A stretch of 51,104 nucleotides of DNA. Origin: Negativicutes bacterium. GTDB lineage: Bacteria > Bacillota > Negativicutes > JAGPMH01. The stretch is from assembly GCA_018052945.1 (NCBI GenBank), contig JAGPMH010000010.1, positions 1 to 51,104 of the forward strand. The letters run 5' to 3'. A program made the position numbers and the translations under genes. Shown here one piece after another: positions 34,560-42,728 of the stretch (within the stretch, counting starts at the first letter, position 1; every line of letters starts with the position of its first letter). The notes under the pieces are model-generated. The model ran no database searches. It saw only the letters and a program-made list of their open reading frames with translations, and was not told the DNA's origin.

Positions 34560-35834
34560 TTATTTTAAACGCTGTAACGCTCTTTGTGCAATATCTTTGC
34601 GATAATGTCTGCCTTCAAAATTAATTTTTTCAACTCCAGCATAAGCTTTTTGAACCGCCGCTTTAATATCAGTATCATAAGCTGTAACCCCAAGGACTCT
34701 TCCGCCATTAGTAGTAAAGCCTTCTGGGGTTTTTGCTGTACCAGCATGAAACACTAACGTCCCAGCAGCTTCCGCTGCGTCAATCCCTGTAATTAAATCA
34801 CCTTTTTTGTATTCACCAGGATACCCACCAGCTGACATTACTACACAAACAGCAGCACCATTTTTCCATAAAATGTTGCAATCTGCCAACTTGCCATCAA
34901 TACAAGCTAACATAATCTCCACTAAATCGCTATCTAGTAATGGTAAAACAACTTGCGTTTCCGGATCACCAAAGCGAGCATTAAATTCGATTACTTTAGG
35001 CCCCTCGGCAGTAATAATTAAGCCAGCATATAAGCACCCGCAGTACTTACGGCTTTCGGCCTTCATTGCCATAATAGTTGGATTTAAAATTGTTTTTTGA
35101 ACTTCTGCTAATAATTCAGCCGTAATAATTGGGGCTGGGGCATAAGTACCCATGCCACCAGTATTTAAACCTTCATCATTATCAAAAATTCTTTTATGAT
35201 CTTGCGCTGAAATCATTGGTACAATTGTTTCACCATCAGTAAAGGTTAAAATTGAAGCTTCTTCCCCTACTAAAAATTCTTCAATAACTACTTTATGACC
35301 AGCACTACCAAAAGCTTTGTCGCACATAATGCTATCAATTGCTTCAGTCGCTTCCGCTATTGTTTGTGCAATAATAACACCTTTGCCGGCAGCCAAACCA
35401 TCAGCTTTAATAACTATTGGTGCACCTAATTCATTGACATATTTTTTAGCAAGTTCCGCTTCTTCAAAAACCTCAAACCGTGCTGTTGGGATATCATATT
35501 TTTTCATTAACCATTTTGAAAAAGCTTTCGAACCTTCAATTTCAGCCGCAACTTTAGTTGGACCAAACGCTTTTAACCCAACTTCAGCAAGTTCATCTAC
35601 CAAACCATTAGTAAGCGGAACTTCAGGGCCAACAATAGTCAAGTCTATTTTATTATCTAGTGCAAATTTTACAATTTCTTGATTATTATTAATATCAAGG
35701 TTAATACAATCTGCTAACAATGCAATGCCAGGATTACCTGGAATTGCATATATTTTTTCCACTTTTGAGTTTTGCGATACTTTCCATGCTAAAGTATGTT
35801 CACGACCGCCACTACCAATTATTAAAACTTTCAC
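34560..35834 (-). CDS. purD: Phosphoribosylamine-glycine ligase
   Basis: ATP-grasp enzyme joining glycine to phosphoribosylamine (GAR synthetase), step 2 of purine synthesis. 424 aa; begins MKVLIIGSGGREHTLAWK; contains EEFLVGEEASIL and EFNARFGDPETQ. The start is GTG 35834 after AGGGGTGG. Last gene of the purECFMNHD operon and followed by its terminator. Confidence 0.97.
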   Translation of the reverse strand: MKVLIIGSGGREHTLAWKVSQNSKVEKIYAIPGNPGIALLADCINLDINNNQEIVKFALDNKIDLTIVGPEVPLTNGLVDELAEVGLKAFGPTKVAAEIEGSKAFSKWLMKKYDIPTARFEVFEEAELAKKYVNELGAPIVIKADGLAAGKGVIIAQTIAEATEAIDSIMCDKAFGSAGHKVVIEEFLVGEEASILTFTDGETIVPMISAQDHKRIFDNDEGLNTGGMGTYAPAPIITAELLAEVQKTILNPTIMAMKAESRKYCGCLYAGLIITAEGPKVIEFNARFGDPETQVVLPLLDSDLVEIMLACIDGKLADCNILWKNGAAVCVVMSAGGYPGEYKKGDLITGIDAAEAAGTLVFHAGTAKTPEGFTTNGGRVLGVTAYDTDIKAAVQKAYAGVEKINFEGRHYRKDIAQRALQRLK

Positions 35835-35850
35835 ACTGCCACCCCTATTT

Positions 35851-37395
35851 TTAATGTTTAAAGTGTCTCATATTTGTAAATACCATTGCAATACCATGCT
35901 CATCTGCCGCTTGAATTGATTCTTCATCGCGTACTGAACCACCTGGCTGAATAATAGCCGTTATCCCTGCTTTAGCAGCTGTATCAACACTATCTCTAAA
36001 TGGGAAGAAGGCATCTGATGATAATACTGCTCCTTTAGCTTTCTCTCCAGCTTGCTCCAACGCAATTGCCGCAGAACCAACTCGATTCATTTGACCCGCA
36101 CCTACACCATAAGTTTGATTGTCACCGGCTACAACAATCGCATTTGATTTAACATGTTTAACAACTTTCCATGCTAATAATAATTGTTGCCACTCTTCTT
36201 TTGATGGCTGGCGTTTAGTAACAACTTTCATATTTTCTATCAGTGCATCTTCAGTATCAGCTTCTTGTAGCAACATTCCACCTGAAACTTTTTTGGTATC
36301 AAGACATTTATCACGACCACTTTCTGGCATATCTAACGTTAATAATCTAATATTTTTCTTTTGTGTCAAGATTTCAATGGCTTCAACAGCGTAACTTGGA
36401 GCTATTACTGCTTCAATAAAAATTGCACCAATTTTTTCAGCAGTAGCTTTGTCAACAGCTCTATTAAGTGCAACAATTCCTCCAAAAGCAGAAACCGGGT
36501 CAGCATCATAAGCTTTCGTATAAGCATCAAGAATATTGCTACCGATTCCAGTACCACATGGGTTAGTATGTTTGATAATTGTTGCAGCCGGTTGTTCAAA
36601 TTCAGCAACAATAGCATAAGCTGCTTCTACATCAACAATATTGTTAAAGGATAATTCTTTGCCATGTAATTGTTTAGCATTAGCAACACCAATTCCATCA
36701 TTAAATTTTTCGCGATAAAATGCGGCATTTTGATGAGGATTTTCACCATAACGTAAATCTTGAACTTTCTCCAAAACAACATGAACTGTTTCCGGGAACT
36801 GACCTTCGCCTAATTCCTTACTTAAATATTGATTAATACAAGCATCATATTCAGCAGTATGACCAAAAGCTTCTTTAGATAAGCTCATTCTTAATTTTTC
36901 AGTAATTCCTTCAGCTGAAGCTAATTGAGCTGCAATTTCATTATAACGGTCAGGATTAACAACAACTGTTACATATTTAAAATTTTTAGCCGCAGCTCTA
37001 ATCATCGCCGGACCACCAATATCAATATTTTCAATTGCCAATGCTAAATTAACATCAGGTTTTTTAATAGTATCACGGAAAGGATATAGATTAACTACAA
37101 CCATATCAATACCAGTAATATTATGTTTTTCCATCGCCGCAATATGATCTTGGTTATCGCGAATCGCTAAAATACCACCATGAATATAAGGATTTAAAGT
37201 TTTGACTCTACCATCCATTATTTCCGGAAAACCTGTTACTTCGCTAACGTATGTTACTGGAATTCCAGCTTCTTTTAATGTTTTCATCGTACCACCAGTT
37301 GATATAATATCAACGCCGGCAGCATGTAGTTTTTGAGCAAATTCAACTAAGCCTGTTTTATCTGATACACTAATAAGTGCGCGTTTTATCTTCAT
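35851..37395 (-). CDS. purH: Bifunctional AICAR formyltransferase / IMP cyclohydrolase
   Basis: Last two steps to IMP. About 514 aa: N-terminal cyclohydrolase (RALISVSDKTGLVEFA; STGGTMKTL), C-terminal formyltransferase with LRYGENPHQNAAF, KHTNPCGTGIG and DAFFPFRDSVD. Of two tandem ATG codons, the second (37395) has the better spacing from AGGTAGGG; the first (37401) abuts it. Confidence 0.97.
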   Translation of the reverse strand: MKIKRALISVSDKTGLVEFAQKLHAAGVDIISTGGTMKTLKEAGIPVTYVSEVTGFPEIMDGRVKTLNPYIHGGILAIRDNQDHIAAMEKHNITGIDMVVVNLYPFRDTIKKPDVNLALAIENIDIGGPAMIRAAAKNFKYVTVVVNPDRYNEIAAQLASAEGITEKLRMSLSKEAFGHTAEYDACINQYLSKELGEGQFPETVHVVLEKVQDLRYGENPHQNAAFYREKFNDGIGVANAKQLHGKELSFNNIVDVEAAYAIVAEFEQPAATIIKHTNPCGTGIGSNILDAYTKAYDADPVSAFGGIVALNRAVDKATAEKIGAIFIEAVIAPSYAVEAIEILTQKKNIRLLTLDMPESGRDKCLDTKKVSGGMLLQEADTEDALIENMKVVTKRQPSKEEWQQLLLAWKVVKHVKSNAIVVAGDNQTYGVGAGQMNRVGSAAIALEQAGEKAKGAVLSSDAFFPFRDSVDTAAKAGITAIIQPGGSVRDEESIQAADEHGIAMVFTNMRHFKH

Positions 37396-37407
37396 TTTCA
37401 TCCCTAC

Positions 37408-38022
37408 CTATTCTTTTATAATTACTTTTCGACCAATTATCTTTAATTTATTTTCCATCACTAAAGAAATCGCTTTTGGATAAAGCGTATGCTCTAAATA
37501 AAGAATTCTTTTTGCTAGAGAGTCTTCGGTATCATTATCAAGAACCGGTATTGATTCTTGTAAAATGATTGGTCCACTATCCATTCCTTCATCAACAAAA
37601 TGAATAGTGCACCCAGAAACCTTTGCGCCATAAGCTATAACTTGTTCATGCGCATTTTTCCCTGGAAAAGATGGTAATAACGAAGGGTGAATATTAATTA
37701 TTTTTTCTTTAAATTCTTGTATAAAATACGGACTTAATATTCTCATAAAGCCTGCTAAAACAACTAATGAAACATTATGTTTTTTTAATGCTACAACAAT
37801 TTTTTCTTCAAAGTCTTGTTGATTACTGCATTCTTTACGATCAACACAAATAGCTATAATATTGTTTTCTGTGGCAATATCAAGTGCCTTCGCATTAGGT
37901 TTATCAGATATTACAACGCCAATTTCGACATTTAAGAGTCCTTTGTTTATCGCTTCAATTATTGCCTGCAGATTACTTCCTCTACCGGATGCTAACACAC
38001 CAATTACATTATTTTGCATCAT
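37408..38022 (-). CDS. purN: Phosphoribosylglycinamide formyltransferase (folate dependent)
   Basis: Transfers a formyl group from 10-formyl-THF to GAR. 204 aa with VLASGRGSNLQAII, the INIHPSLLPSFPG motif (His of the catalytic triad) and FVDEGMDSGPII with the catalytic Asp. The start is ATG 38022 (or 38019), after GGGGGCG. It overlaps the purM end by about 14 bases, so translation is coupled. Confidence 0.96.
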   Translation of the reverse strand: MMQNNVIGVLASGRGSNLQAIIEAINKGLLNVEIGVVISDKPNAKALDIATENNIIAICVDRKECSNQQDFEEKIVVALKKHNVSLVVLAGFMRILSPYFIQEFKEKIINIHPSLLPSFPGKNAHEQVIAYGAKVSGCTIHFVDEGMDSGPIILQESIPVLDNDTEDSLAKRILYLEHTLYPKAISLVMENKLKIIGRKVIIKE

Positions 38023-39082
38023 CAAAAGCGCCCCCTTTTAGGACAACCTCCTGTTCTCCTGCTGTAACTTTTCCGATAATAAAGCTTTGTTCATTTTGTT
38101 CTGCTAAAAATGCTTGTATTTCTTCTACAGCATCTTCTGCTACAACTAAAATCATACCAATACCCATATTAAAAGTGCGATACATTTCAGGCCAAGCAAC
38201 ATTACCCCACTCTTTTAACAAGTTGAAAATTGTTGGTCTTGCCCAAGCATTAGTATCAATTTCCGCACCACAATTTTTCGGTAAAACACGCGGAATATTG
38301 TCATAAAAACCGCCCCCGGTAATATGAACCATTCCAAAAATATCAAATTTTTCAATCAACGGTAGACAAACCTTTGGATATAATCTAGTCGGTGTTAATA
38401 GTTCTTCACCAATAGTTTTATCAAGTTCCGGAATAAACTCAGACCCATTAAAACCTTTTAAATCAAAACAAATTTTTCTAACTAGAGAGTAACCATTAGA
38501 ATGAACCCCTGAAGATGGTAACCCAATAATAACATTGCCCGGTTTAATTTTTTCACCGGTAATAATATTTTCTTTTTCTACAACCCCGACTGAAAAACCA
38601 GCAATATCATATTCGCCATCAGGATAAAAGCCTGCCATTTCTGCAGTTTCCCCACCAATTAGTGCACAGCCAGATTCTTTACAAGCTTTCGCTACCCCAC
38701 TAACAATATCAGCAACTTTTTCTGGTTCTAATTTTCCTACCGCCAAATAATCTAAAAAGAATAAAGGCTCAGCACCTTGTACCAAAATATCATTTACGCA
38801 CATCGCCACTGCATCTTGACCAATTGTATCATGTTTATCTAACATAAACGCTAAGCGTAACTTAGTTCCGACACCATCAGTACCTGAAACCAACACCGGC
38901 TCTTTATATTTTGTATTTAGAGCAAATAACCCCCCAAATCCGCCTAAATCACCTAAAACTTCTGGGCGATAAGTAGCTTTAACATGATTTTTCATTAATG
39001 ATACAGCATGATTTCCAGCATCAATATCAACACCGGCATCACGATATGTCAATTGCTTGTTATCTTTATTTTCTAAACTCAT
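38009..39082 (-). CDS. purM: Phosphoribosylformylglycinamidine cyclo-ligase
   Basis: AIR synthetase, 357 aa. Contains LTYRDAGVDIDAGN, VSGTDGVGTKL, ALIGGETAEM and HITGGGFYDNIPRVLP. I place the start at ATG 39082 (MSLENKDN), 7 bases after TAGGAGGAT; the longer reading to 39106 lacks a site. A hairpin separates it from purF. Confidence 0.97.
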   Translation of the reverse strand: MSLENKDNKQLTYRDAGVDIDAGNHAVSLMKNHVKATYRPEVLGDLGGFGGLFALNTKYKEPVLVSGTDGVGTKLRLAFMLDKHDTIGQDAVAMCVNDILVQGAEPLFFLDYLAVGKLEPEKVADIVSGVAKACKESGCALIGGETAEMAGFYPDGEYDIAGFSVGVVEKENIITGEKIKPGNVIIGLPSSGVHSNGYSLVRKICFDLKGFNGSEFIPELDKTIGEELLTPTRLYPKVCLPLIEKFDIFGMVHITGGGFYDNIPRVLPKNCGAEIDTNAWARPTIFNLLKEWGNVAWPEMYRTFNMGIGMILVVAEDAVEEIQAFLAEQNEQSFIIGKVTAGEQEVVLKGGAFDDAK

Positions 39083-39120
39083 TGAAATCCTCCTAAAATT
39101 AATCAAATTACAATAGCAGA

Positions 39121-39152
39121 TTAAGACTCCGCTTTTTACAGAGGAGTCTTAA
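39121..39152 (-). other. Intra-operon hairpin between purF and purM
   Basis: Inverted repeat with perfect 10-base arms (TTAAGACTCC / GGAGTCTTAA) and a 12-base loop, 2 bases past the purF stop. No U-tract follows on the minus strand. It is more likely a 3'-end stabiliser or processing site that sets unequal expression of purECF and purMNHD than a terminator. Confidence 0.6.
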
Positions 39153-39154
39153 AT

Positions 39155-40603
39155 TTAGCATTTACATTGATTATCTTTTCTCTTTTCAAACATGTATTTT
39201 GCAGAATCATTACCATCTTCTTCACATGGTGTGCCACCGCGATAATCACTATTAAAACAAGCGAAGCACAGGTCGTCACTATTAATTTTATTAACAGATT
39301 TCATTAATCCATCAATTGATAAAAAGTGTAGTGAATCCGCTCCGATATATTCTCTGATTTCTTCAACAGTTTTTGTTGCCGCAATAAGCTCTTTGCGAAT
39401 AGATGTATCAATTCCATAATAACAAGGATAAATTATTGGAGGTGAGCTAATACACATGTGTACGGCAGTAGCTCCAGCCGCTTTTAACATTTTTACAATT
39501 TTCCCACTGGTTGTTCCTCTAACAATAGAATCATCAACCATAATAACAGACTTGCCTTCAACCACTGATTTCACTGCATTTAATTTTAGCTTAACGCTAT
39601 TATCACGTTTCTTTTGAGATGGCTGAATAAAAGTTCTGCCAATATAACGATTTTTCATCAACCCTTCACAAAATGGTATCCCTGATTCTGCACTAAACCC
39701 AATAGCCGCTGTTGTTCCTGAATCTGGCACAGAAATAACAATATCGCCAGTAAACTTACTTTCTCTAGCTAGCATTTTTCCCATTTCAAAACGAGCAGCA
39801 TGAACACTTTGTCCATCAATGACACTGTCTGGTCTTGCAAAATAAATATATTCAAAAACACAGGCCGCTTTAGCAATATTTTCAGCAAACATTATAGACT
39901 TAACACCATTGTCATCAATAACAACCATTTCACCTGGTTCAATATCTCTAACAAATTCAGCGCCAATAGTATCTAACGCACACGACTCTGATGAAAGAAC
40001 ATACCCTGAGTCAAGTTTCCCTAAACAAAGCGGTCTAAAGCCTTGAGGATCTCTTGCCCCAATTAGTTTGTCTTCCGTCATGATTGTGAGACAGTATGCA
40101 CCTTTTATTTTATTTAAACTTTCGACAATTTTATCTTCAACACATTGTTTGCGTGAGCGAGCAATCAAATTAACAAACACTTCTGAATCAATCGTTGTTT
40201 GGAAAACCGTTCCGCAATCTTCCAATTCAGCTCTAATTTCATGAGCATTAGTCAAATTCCCATTATGAGCCAAACTAATCTTACCGCCAGAATAATTAAC
40301 CATTAGCGGTTGTGTATTTGCTAATAAACTTGATCCGGTAGTTGAGTACCGAACATGACCAATTGCAATATACTGTCCATCCATATGCGGTAATTGATGA
40401 CGAAAAACTTCATTTACTAAACCCATACCTCTGTGAACATCCATCCAGGAACCGTCTGTAATTGCAATGCCAGCACTTTCCTGACCTCTATGCTGCAATG
40501 CATATAAGCCTAAATAAGTATTAAGTGCGACATCATCTTCACGAGAATATATTCCAAAAACTCCGCACTCTTCTTTTAACTTATCCAGTTCTAAATCTAG
40601 CAT
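39155..40603 (-). CDS. purF: Amidophosphoribosyltransferase
   Basis: Committed step of purine synthesis: PRPP plus glutamine to phosphoribosylamine. 482 aa. A short propeptide (12 residues, ending KEE) precedes the nucleophile Cys13 (CGVFGIYS), as in the Bacillus-type proenzyme. The PRPP-binding loop [17 protein letters not shown] is intact. Scattered cysteines including ACVFEY, YPCYYG and CFAC match the [4Fe-4S] ligands of the Bacillus enzyme, implying oxygen sensitivity. ATG 40603 overlaps the purC end by 7 bases. Confidence 0.97.
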
Positions 40604-41310
40604 ATAACCTCTCCTGTTAATCTATGTAGTACTTCTTTATAGGCATCTTCAATGTTTCCAAGGTCACGACGGAATCTATCTTTATCTAGTTTTTCACCGG
40701 TTTTACTATCCCAGAATCGGCAAGTGTCAGGAGAAATCTCATCACCTAACAATACCATTCCTTTATGTAAACCAAATTCTAATTTAAAATCAATTAATTC
40801 AATATCTTTTGTTTTTAAATATTGTGTTAATACTTCATTAACTTTTAAAGCGATACTTTCCATTTCAGCAACTTGTTCTGGTGTTGCTAAATTTAATGCT
40901 GCAACATGGAAATCATTAATAATCGGATCTCCTAAATCATCGTTTTTATAATAAAGTTCAACAACAGTATTCGGTAATTTAGTCCCTTCAGCCCAGCCTA
41001 ATCTTTTTGCTAAGCTACCGGCTGCAATATTTCTTGTTACAACTTCTACTTGAATAATTTCCAATGATTTAACTAACATTTCACGATCACTTGGCATATC
41101 AATAAAATGACTTTCCACACCATTTTCTTTTAATAATTTAAAGAAAAAAGATGATATTTTATTATTCATAATACCTTTATTTAAAATAGTGCCTTTTTTA
41201 GCACCATTGCCAGCAGTTGCATCATCTTTGTAATATACTAAAACTTCATCTTGGTTATCAGTAGCAAATATTTGTTTTGCTTTACCTTCATACAACATTT
41301 CTTTTTTCAT
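40597..41310 (-). CDS. purC: SAICAR synthetase
   Basis: Phosphoribosylaminoimidazole-succinocarboxamide synthase, 237 aa. Contains [24 protein letters not shown] and IDFKLEFG, then [18 protein letters not shown] 41310 is 6 bases after GGAGGGG; an in-frame TTG at 41325 lies before that site. 21 bases after purE. Confidence 0.97.
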
Positions 41311-41331
41311 TAGAAACCCCTCCAAAAAATA

Positions 41332-41826
41332 TTATTTATCATTAATCATTGCCGAAACTTTAGCTGCTTTTGCCTCAACTTCGTCAACCATTTTTTCACG
41401 TTGTTTCGCTAATTTACCCTGTAATTCTTTATCAGAAATTGATAGTATTTGTGCAGCAAAAATACCGGCATTTTTCGCACCATTTACTGCCATTACACCA
41501 ACCGGAATACCAGATGGCATTTGAACCATGCTTAATAGTGCATCCATACCGTTTAAAGGTGTTGCATTAATAGGTACTCCAATAACCGGTAATGTTGTTA
41601 AACTTGCAACAACACCCGCTAAGTGAGCTGCTGCTCCAGCAGCCGCAATAAAGAGATTAACGCCTCTTTCACTTGCTGTGCTAACAATATCATGAACTTT
41701 AGCCGGCGTACGATGTGCTGAAGCAACAACAACTTCAGTCTCAACACCCACCCCTTCTAAAAAATCAGCAGCCGGTCTTAAAATCGGCCAGTCAGAGTCG
41801 CTTCCCATTAAAATACAAACTTTCAT
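41332..41826 (-). CDS. purE: N5-carboxyaminoimidazole ribonucleotide mutase
   Basis: Class I-like PurE, 164 aa: MGSDSDWPILRPA, ASAHRTP, a glycine/alanine-rich AAGAAAHLAGVVAS loop and LSMVQMPSGIPVG. Class I PurE normally works with PurK, which supplies N5-CAIR, but no purK lies beside it. First gene of purECFMNHD. The ATG at 41826 is preceded by GGGAG about 9 bases upstream and by a 250-base structured leader. Confidence 0.96.
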   Translation of the reverse strand: MKVCILMGSDSDWPILRPAADFLEGVGVETEVVVASAHRTPAKVHDIVSTASERGVNLFIAAAGAAAHLAGVVASLTTLPVIGVPINATPLNGMDALLSMVQMPSGIPVGVMAVNGAKNAGIFAAQILSISDKELQGKLAKQREKMVDEVEAKAAKVSAMINDK

Positions 41827-41930
41827 TCACTACATCTCCCTATTATATAATAAATTTTATTTGGTTAATTTTTTCACTTAAGCTTTAGACAATAATTCAT
41901 ATTTTTCCATTAAAGGATAATTTTAAAATG

Positions 41931-42009
41931 CAAAAATAATAACCGGGCAGGCTATTTTGTATATTATACTACACAAAATTTCCCACCCGGGTCTTTTCTC
42001 TATCCGGGT
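41931..42009 (-). ncRNA. Attenuator of purE: terminator and competing antiterminator stem
   Basis: Terminator: CCGGGTGGG (41982-41990) pairs with CCTGCCCGG (41943-41951) through 9 bp with two G-U pairs. An upper 10-bp stem based on ATTTTGT / ACAAAAT continues it, and TTATTATTTTTG follows. Competitor: ACCCGG (42004-42009) can instead pair with CCGGGT (41985-41990), consuming the 5' arm of the terminator. The two structures exclude each other, the hallmark of transcription attenuation. What selects between them is not visible. Confidence 0.7.
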
Positions 42010-42021
42010 TAGTTTTTTTTA

Positions 42022-42054
42022 CTAGCTCCGAGCATATCCCTTTTCATAATACAT
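42022..42054 (-). CDS. Possible leader peptide of the pur operon (10 codons)
   Basis: ATG to TAG encoding MYYEKGYARS, located between the promoter and the attenuator and ending 12 bases before the antiterminator arm. That spacing is suited to ribosome-controlled folding. Three of ten codons are Tyr. The ribosome site is weak (no AGGAGG-like sequence within 12 bases), so it may be chance. Confidence 0.3.
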   Translation of the reverse strand: MYYEKGYARS

Positions 42055-42084
42055 AAACTTGTCTTTGTAACTTATCTTCAACTA

Positions 42085-42114
42085 ATGATAACAAAAACAA
42101 TAAAACTATGTCAA
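42085..42114 (-). promoter_or_regulatory. Promoter of the pur operon
   Basis: Minus-strand -35 TTGACA (42109-42114, perfect) and -10 TTATCA (17-base spacer) or TATCAT (18-base spacer) at 42085-42091. It lies 39 bases past the plsC stop. Confidence 0.75.
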
Positions 42115-42152
42115 CGAAATTCGTTTTAATATAAAAATAATCAACTTAAAAC

Positions 42153-42728
42153 TTATCGCGACATTAATTTGCCAATTTCTCTCATGATTTCATCAGTAAA
42201 TTCTTGCATTACAATTTTGCCGTCTTCATTAGGTTGATATTTTATCGGTTTTCCAAATATAAGCTTTATTTCATTACCCCAGAATTTATTTTTTTTAATT
42301 ATTACTGCTGTGGGAACTACCGGTACATCAGCTTTTATAGCAATTAATGCCATTCCAGCTTCAGCTTCGCCCAGTTTTCCATCTTTACTTCTTGTCCCTT
42401 CGGGAAATAAACCTAAGCACTCTCCACTTTTTAATAAGCTAATTGCTTTTTTTATAGCAACTCGATCTGCCGTTCCCCTTTTAACCGGAAAAGCATTTAA
42501 CCTTTTGATAATATAGCCAATTATTGGAATGTCAAACAACTCTTCTTTGGCCATAAAATTAATTTTTCGGGGCAAAAAAGTACCAATAAGCGGTGGATCC
42601 CATAAACTAATATGATTTGCGGCAATAATTACCCCTTTAGTACTAGGGATATTTTCAACGCCAACAATTTGGCACTTGAAAAAATTTTTAAAAATAAATT
42701 TGAATAAAATAACTCCTATATTATACAT
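42153..42728 (-). CDS. plsC: 1-acyl-sn-glycerol-3-phosphate acyltransferase
   Basis: Adds the second acyl chain in phosphatidic acid synthesis. 191 aa with HxxxxD (His39-Asp44 in ANHISLWDPP), FPEGTR (108-113) and an N-terminal hydrophobic segment (about 3-16) for membrane attachment. Last gene after cmk, a pairing common in Firmicutes. Confidence 0.93.
   Translation of the reverse strand: MYNIGVILFKFIFKNFFKCQIVGVENIPSTKGVIIAANHISLWDPPLIGTFLPRKINFMAKEELFDIPIIGYIIKRLNAFPVKRGTADRVAIKKAISLLKSGECLGLFPEGTRSKDGKLGEAEAGMALIAIKADVPVVPTAVIIKKNKFWGNEIKLIFGKPIKYQPNEDGKIVMQEFTDEIMREIGKLMSR

Follow-up and report, generated by a model that had tools for sequence, protein, structure and literature searches.

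The window, by which we mean the whole 51,104-nt stretch of DNA analysed here, is a contig from a 1.64-Mb genome and carries on its minus strand a purine biosynthesis operon in which purE is followed by purC, purF, purM, purN, purH and purD (Table 1). Two of these genes, purC and purF, were identified with NCBIfam, and the other four downstream genes by gene order and by reading their translations. Upstream on the same strand lies plsC, which ends at 42153, and between it and the start of purE at 41826 are found a promoter and a leader whose attenuator elements lie about 90 nt into the expected transcript. Touching the -35 element of this promoter is a perfect 13-nt palindrome (AACGAATTTCGTT, window positions 42113-42125), a possible repressor site that yields no regulon because it occurs as a single copy in the whole genome. 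Separately, a TATAAT hexamer at window positions 41842-41847, directly before the purE ribosome-binding site, makes a second start within the leader conceivable; no good -35 element was seen for it.

Table 1. Features of the pur operon and its leader in the window
Feature	Positions	Strand	Basis or remark
Sigma-70 type promoter of the pur operon	42085..42114	-	TTGACA, 18-nt spacer, TATCAT, TG before -10; 11/12 consensus positions
Leader RNA, expected transcription start to end of terminator tail	41930..42079	-	Start site inferred from promoter
ACAAAG, possible 5' strand of a closing helix (PRPP P0 position)	42063..42068	-	Weak; could pair with UUUUGU 41978-41973
UAGU-A7-ACUA hairpin at PRPP P2 position	42011..42025	-	Only four pairs, weak
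ACCCGG, 5' strand of antiterminator hairpin (PRPP P3 position)	42004..42009	-	Sequence and folding
CCGGGU, shared: 3' strand of antiterminator or start of terminator stem	41985..41990	-	Sequence and folding
Intrinsic terminator hairpin	41943..41990	-	Lower stem 41990-41982/41951-41943, upper stem 41979-41970/41963-41954
U-rich tail of terminator, UUAUUAUUUUUGC	41930..41942	-	Sequence
Segment probably homologous to PRPP 3' third and expression platform	41923..42016	-	R3, 30.1 bits
purE, first gene of operon downstream of leader	41332..41826	-	TIGR01162, 192 bits
purC, purF, purM, purN, purH, purD after purE	34560..41325	-	Same strand as purE

The leader can adopt two folds that draw on the same segment. 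In the terminator, CCGGGTGGG pairs with CCTGCCCGG in a lower stem of nine pairs (two of them G-U), topped by an upper stem of ten pairs (one of them G-U) formed by ATTTTGTGTA and TATACAAAAT and then followed by TTATTATTTTTGC. In the antiterminator, the upstream ACCCGG, an exact complement of the CCGGGU with which the terminator stem begins, captures that segment instead. In RNAfold, the minimum-energy structure of the 86-nt segment is the terminator (-29.0 kcal/mol, z -4.7, with none of 200 shuffles equally stable); in transcripts truncated at 100-115 nt it is the antiterminator hairpin, which yields to the terminator after CCTGCCCGG is transcribed. Over the full length, the ensemble energy is -36.3 kcal/mol with the antiterminator enforced versus -41.0 kcal/mol with the terminator enforced, a difference of 4.7. 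A perfect 6-nt complement to the 5' strand of the terminator arises within the upstream 90 nt in 1.2% of dinucleotide shuffles, so that the antiterminator by itself is suggestive rather than overwhelming. The six possible pairs between ACAAAG and UUUUGU are part of the minimum-energy fold in a single truncation, that at 120 nt, and recur in the alignment to the aptamer model R1 described below. Internal bulges interrupt the stem of the terminator hairpin, which for this reason was missed by a simple terminator scan. No second ACCCGG...CCGGGTGGG arrangement was found elsewhere in the genome.

These observations bear out the original prediction that CCGGGT (in the DNA) pairs either with the upstream ACCCGG or within a terminator, that the two folds are mutually exclusive, and that both lie between a good promoter and purE; all of the minus-strand elements are present. 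Both the sequence and the folding calculations give good support to attenuation ahead of purE, its function being predicted from them. A plain, unregulated terminator, serving either to end read-through from the plsC operon or as a fixed brake, is conceivable in that plsC lies upstream in the same orientation and the interval from its end to purE showed no further terminator. This we regard as very improbable, given the strong promoter that stands between plsC and the terminator and the antiterminator that competes with the latter, perfectly paired, where PRPP P3 would lie.

The same prediction had stated that the cores of the known riboswitches are absent, and this too held: the Rfam search of the window and of the leader region was negative and the PRPP core is missing. 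No Rfam family reached its gathering threshold in the whole window, and nothing credible appeared in the region up to an E-value of 10. Purine, ZTP, preQ1 and the other Rfam 15 families stayed below their gathering scores, the best local match being at chance level, and the genome yielded no purine riboswitch, no ykkC riboswitch and no PurR above cut-off, the last of which led us to reject control of the operon by PurR. Leader-peptide attenuation was likewise rejected, on a reading of the sequence in which the short frames MYYEKGYARS and MKRDMLGASKKN are without a Shine-Dalgarno sequence at a useful distance. The stretch GCUAGUAAAAAAAACUAA bears what we take to be a resemblance to preQ1-I, to which Rfam lends no support. 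The reach of these negative results is limited for one class in particular. Rfam 15 showed no separate model for the PRPP riboswitch, and canonical-looking PRPP riboswitches upstream of purE in two loci of relatives (L024 and L030) match RF00442 only, at 42-44 bits against a cut-off of 63. Annotation at gathering thresholds therefore misses PRPP riboswitches, and a negative Rfam result cannot exclude one.

Across much of the class, the pur operon is preceded by a canonical PRPP riboswitch, in many cases in tandem with a guanine aptamer, and the PRPP-type aptamers sit either upstream of purE or upstream of a purine permease gene that is then followed by purE. In L030 the PRPP aptamer comes after a guanine aptamer, a tandem arrangement that has already been published (PMC5912903). 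Among the relatives identified through PurE, those with names are Selenomonas, Pelosinus, Mitsuokella and Anaerovibrio, from which we read the class as Negativicutes. Most PRPP-bearing relatives carry the riboswitch before the permease gene, not directly before purE, and since this gene is absent here, a rearrangement has to be assumed, or else a direct arrangement as in L024 and L030. A covariance model built from 21 PRPP-type aptamers of the class (R1) matched 71 of 380 genomes at E<=1, the genome of the window not being among them, the E-values of this and the following models resting on a shortened calibration. In a tree of PurE and PurC, the lineage of the window branches off first (98/94) within a clade that lacks PRPP riboswitches (G016, G004 and Selenomonadaceae), and this clade is sister to G031 and G017, both of which have PRPP riboswitches (100/99). 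A search with R1, filters off, found no PRPP remnant in the G004 and G016 loci. One tip, G036 (L023), was entered in the tree as being without PRPP and is better termed degenerate.

As a whole, the leader is no recognisable PRPP riboswitch. R1 gives mostly 100-143 bits to canonical pur members and 5.3 bits to the leader (42069-41971), which is the best place within 601 nt (E 0.088) and chance level across the whole window (E 7.5); the whole-aptamer score of the known members is not reached. The P1/P1a strand CUAGGGUUCC, invariant in alignment A2, is absent from the leader, as is the 3' P1 strand (G)ACC(A/G)AGUGGUACA. The ACACCG that precedes P3 in PRPP riboswitches has become AACCCGG, the (A/G)G before UUUC after P3 has become AA (GGGAAAUUUU), and in place of the canonical P3 (CCG..GGG-loop-CCC..CGG) there is a hairpin with a longer loop, in which ACCCGG and CCGGGU form six uninterrupted pairs. 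Found in the leader, on the other hand, are the location ahead of purE and the following pur genes of purine biosynthesis, and a platform in which the 3' strands of P3 and P0 are shared with the terminator, as seen in the folds and in the full-length match reported below. The crystal structure of the PRPP riboswitch has identified the residues that contact the ligand (PMC6031431), and on our reading several of the positions changed or missing in the leader would map onto them.

A PRPP sensor that still functioned would have rebuilt its P1/P1a/P1b core beyond recognition, and PRPP would stabilise the P0/P3 fold and turn the operon on; the operon itself, the layout of promoter and terminator and the positions of P3 and P0 all match a PRPP ON-switch, and the leader retains AAAG ahead of P0 as well as the GGG that follows P3. 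This reading nevertheless appears quite unlikely in view of the missing conserved strands CUAGGGUUCCG and GACCAAGUGGUACA and of the replacement of ACACC by AACCC and of (A/G)G before UUU by AA, several of these mapping, as we read the numbering, onto residues reported to contact PRPP (PMC6031431).

While the ligand-binding core is missing, the 3' third of the leader resembles that of PRPP riboswitches. R3, a covariance model of 16 PRPP riboswitch 3' thirds with their terminators, from which the window was left out, matches the leader at 42016-41923 over its full length, all 95 positions, on the right strand, with E-values (on the same shortened calibration) of 1.2e-7 in the 51-kb window with filters off and 3.9e-6 in the genome. 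The next best place on either strand of the window, at 16.5 bits, is this hairpin read on the complementary strand, and across the 1.64-Mb genome the leader is the clear best at 30.1 bits, with the next independent place at 16.2. In a control on 380 genomes, 30-34 bits were also reached by a small number of terminators that look unrelated (G252, G260 and G051), in about 1 of 100 genomes; the R3 score alone is therefore no proof, and the position ahead of purE carries much of the weight. The chance of an accidental match exactly at the pur leader and on the right strand is far smaller.

A model derived from the leader alone (R2) points in the same direction. Its best matches across 232 kb of fetched loci include the expression platforms of PRPP riboswitches, aligned in register, and in the 380 genomes its matches at E<1 include about a dozen such platforms. 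The best non-self match of R2 (G161, 41 bits) falls in an unrelated cluster whose neighbours look nitrogenase-associated, and we judged it and the next ones to be chance matches. The mean local-alignment score of the leader against PRPP leaders lies above that of 1,000 out of 1,000 dinucleotide shuffles, and in a comparison with 16,800 natural non-PRPP windows it shares the highest mean similarity to them with a single GC-rich window; among 4,000 shuffles that preserve the terminator and the antiterminator, 15 reached the same similarity. No copy of this leader was found among the purE leaders of 60 relatives, at 80 loci of the genome collection or at 30 loci of family f15 of the class. We conclude, from a single instance, that the leader probably descends from a PRPP riboswitch.

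The likeness of the platform could also have arisen by convergence, in an attenuator without PRPP descent that joins a C/G-rich terminator to a complementary upstream segment. Chance terminators do reach similar R3 scores at the frequency given above, the aptamer core is absent, and family f15 has terminator-only purE leaders of other sequence. We nonetheless consider convergence improbable: the R3 match is full-length, in register and on the right strand exactly where relatives carry PRPP riboswitches, and few of the structure-preserving shuffles equalled the observed similarity. The original prediction left a choice between a distinct regulatory RNA and a divergent form of some known class. 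The evidence favours the latter, with a 3' third and platform homologous to those of PRPP riboswitches and a ligand-binding core that is missing.

Two other leaders of the class, those of G036 and G324, show a parallel decay of the PRPP riboswitch. In G036 (L215 134-392), a permease-purE pair is preceded by an intact guanine aptamer and, after it, a degenerate PRPP aptamer (R1 35.7 bits, R3 31.7). In G324 (L222 600-780), upstream of a purine permease gene, an intact guanine aptamer is followed by GAGTGAAAAG and then by a P3-like and terminator part; the PRPP P1/P2 core is gone, the P0 strand and the platform are kept (R1 8.3 bits, R3 30.3), and the whole has the appearance of a natural truncated tandem riboswitch. 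Nine purE leaders of family f15 (L164, L168, L169, L171, L176, L029, L179, L181 and L184) share the conserved promoter TTGACAC...TTGGTAAAATT and are terminator-only, with a conserved CCCGAGAAAGATT...CTTGGGTTTTGTTTTTT and no PRPP aptamer. R3 scored at chance level when these leaders were tested as the same element, and they could represent either a relative in which erosion has gone further or an independent attenuator. As a separate observation, a degenerate PRPP/ykkC-like leader (R1 29.7 bits) lies in G012 (L221 557-712) before a gene that reads as an xpt-type phosphoribosyltransferase.

The 5' half of the window leader, 42 nt that have been remodelled, could in principle form a compact new aptamer for another purine-related ligand, with the old platform kept in place. 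Its layout is not random, since it comprises a potential P0 strand, an arm folded as a hairpin and, ahead of P3, a stretch rich in A, and ykkC RNAs are known to switch ligand (PMC6031431). Such a re-purposing seems quite unlikely all the same, given that this 5' half was seen in one instance, with no sign of conservation, and that its predicted structure before P3 forms is weak, at about -7 kcal/mol.

The reading that we favour, with a probability of about 0.58, is that the leader is a PRPP riboswitch (ykkC subtype 2b) in a derived and partly eroded form, in which it continues to attenuate transcription of purECFMNHD. Under this model, the P3-derived hairpin ACCCGG:CCGGGU would form first during transcription and act as an antiterminator, and the later-emerging terminator would capture the same CCGGGU and stop transcription before purE unless the first fold persists. 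The balance of the switch would no longer be set by PRPP through the known pocket; instead, it would be set mainly by folding kinetics and the speed of RNA polymerase, or by another input acting through the remodelled 5' half. Because the six pairs are stable without a ligand and the PRPP pocket is unrecognisable, a kinetic attenuator is the simplest reading, that is, an attenuator sensitive to polymerase speed or to some factor, with the controlling input at present a guess. A rebuilt PRPP sensor or a sensor of another ligand is possible and less likely than a kinetic attenuator.

The value of the eroded PRPP riboswitch proposed here lies in a rare intermediate state of a decaying or re-purposed RNA sensor rather than in a new class. 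Intermediates between a working riboswitch and none have seldom been documented, and the window leader together with G036 and G324 makes up a graded series of intact riboswitch, degenerate core, deleted core, platform only and nothing. With such a series at one operon in one class, the order in which the parts of a riboswitch are lost becomes testable. The analysis also illustrates that a leader without an Rfam match can be assigned when its expression platform is modelled instead of its aptamer.

Among known systems, the Guanidine-I riboswitch (RF00442), parent of the ykkC class, is a distant structural parent by way of the PRPP subtype; the genome contains no match to it, and the leader region yields none at E-values up to 10. 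The purE leaders of family f15 resemble the window leader in having an intrinsic terminator between promoter and purE and no recognisable aptamer, but differ from it in sequence (CCCGAGAAAGATT...CTTGGGTTTTGTTTTTT). Closer are the eroded PRPP riboswitches of G036 and G324, which also lead purine genes and have likewise kept the platform while the aptamer core is degenerate or deleted; both retain an intact guanine aptamer upstream, whereas the window leader is without one. The PRPP riboswitch itself differs from the leader, which has no P1/P1a/P1b core, has several ligand-contact residues altered, has P3 rebuilt as six contiguous pairs and has no guanine aptamer adjacent to it. The two share control of purine synthesis genes, predicted in the case of the leader, in both the 3' strands of P3 and P0 double as the 5' strand of the terminator, and over 94 nt the leader is probably homologous to the PRPP riboswitch in sequence.
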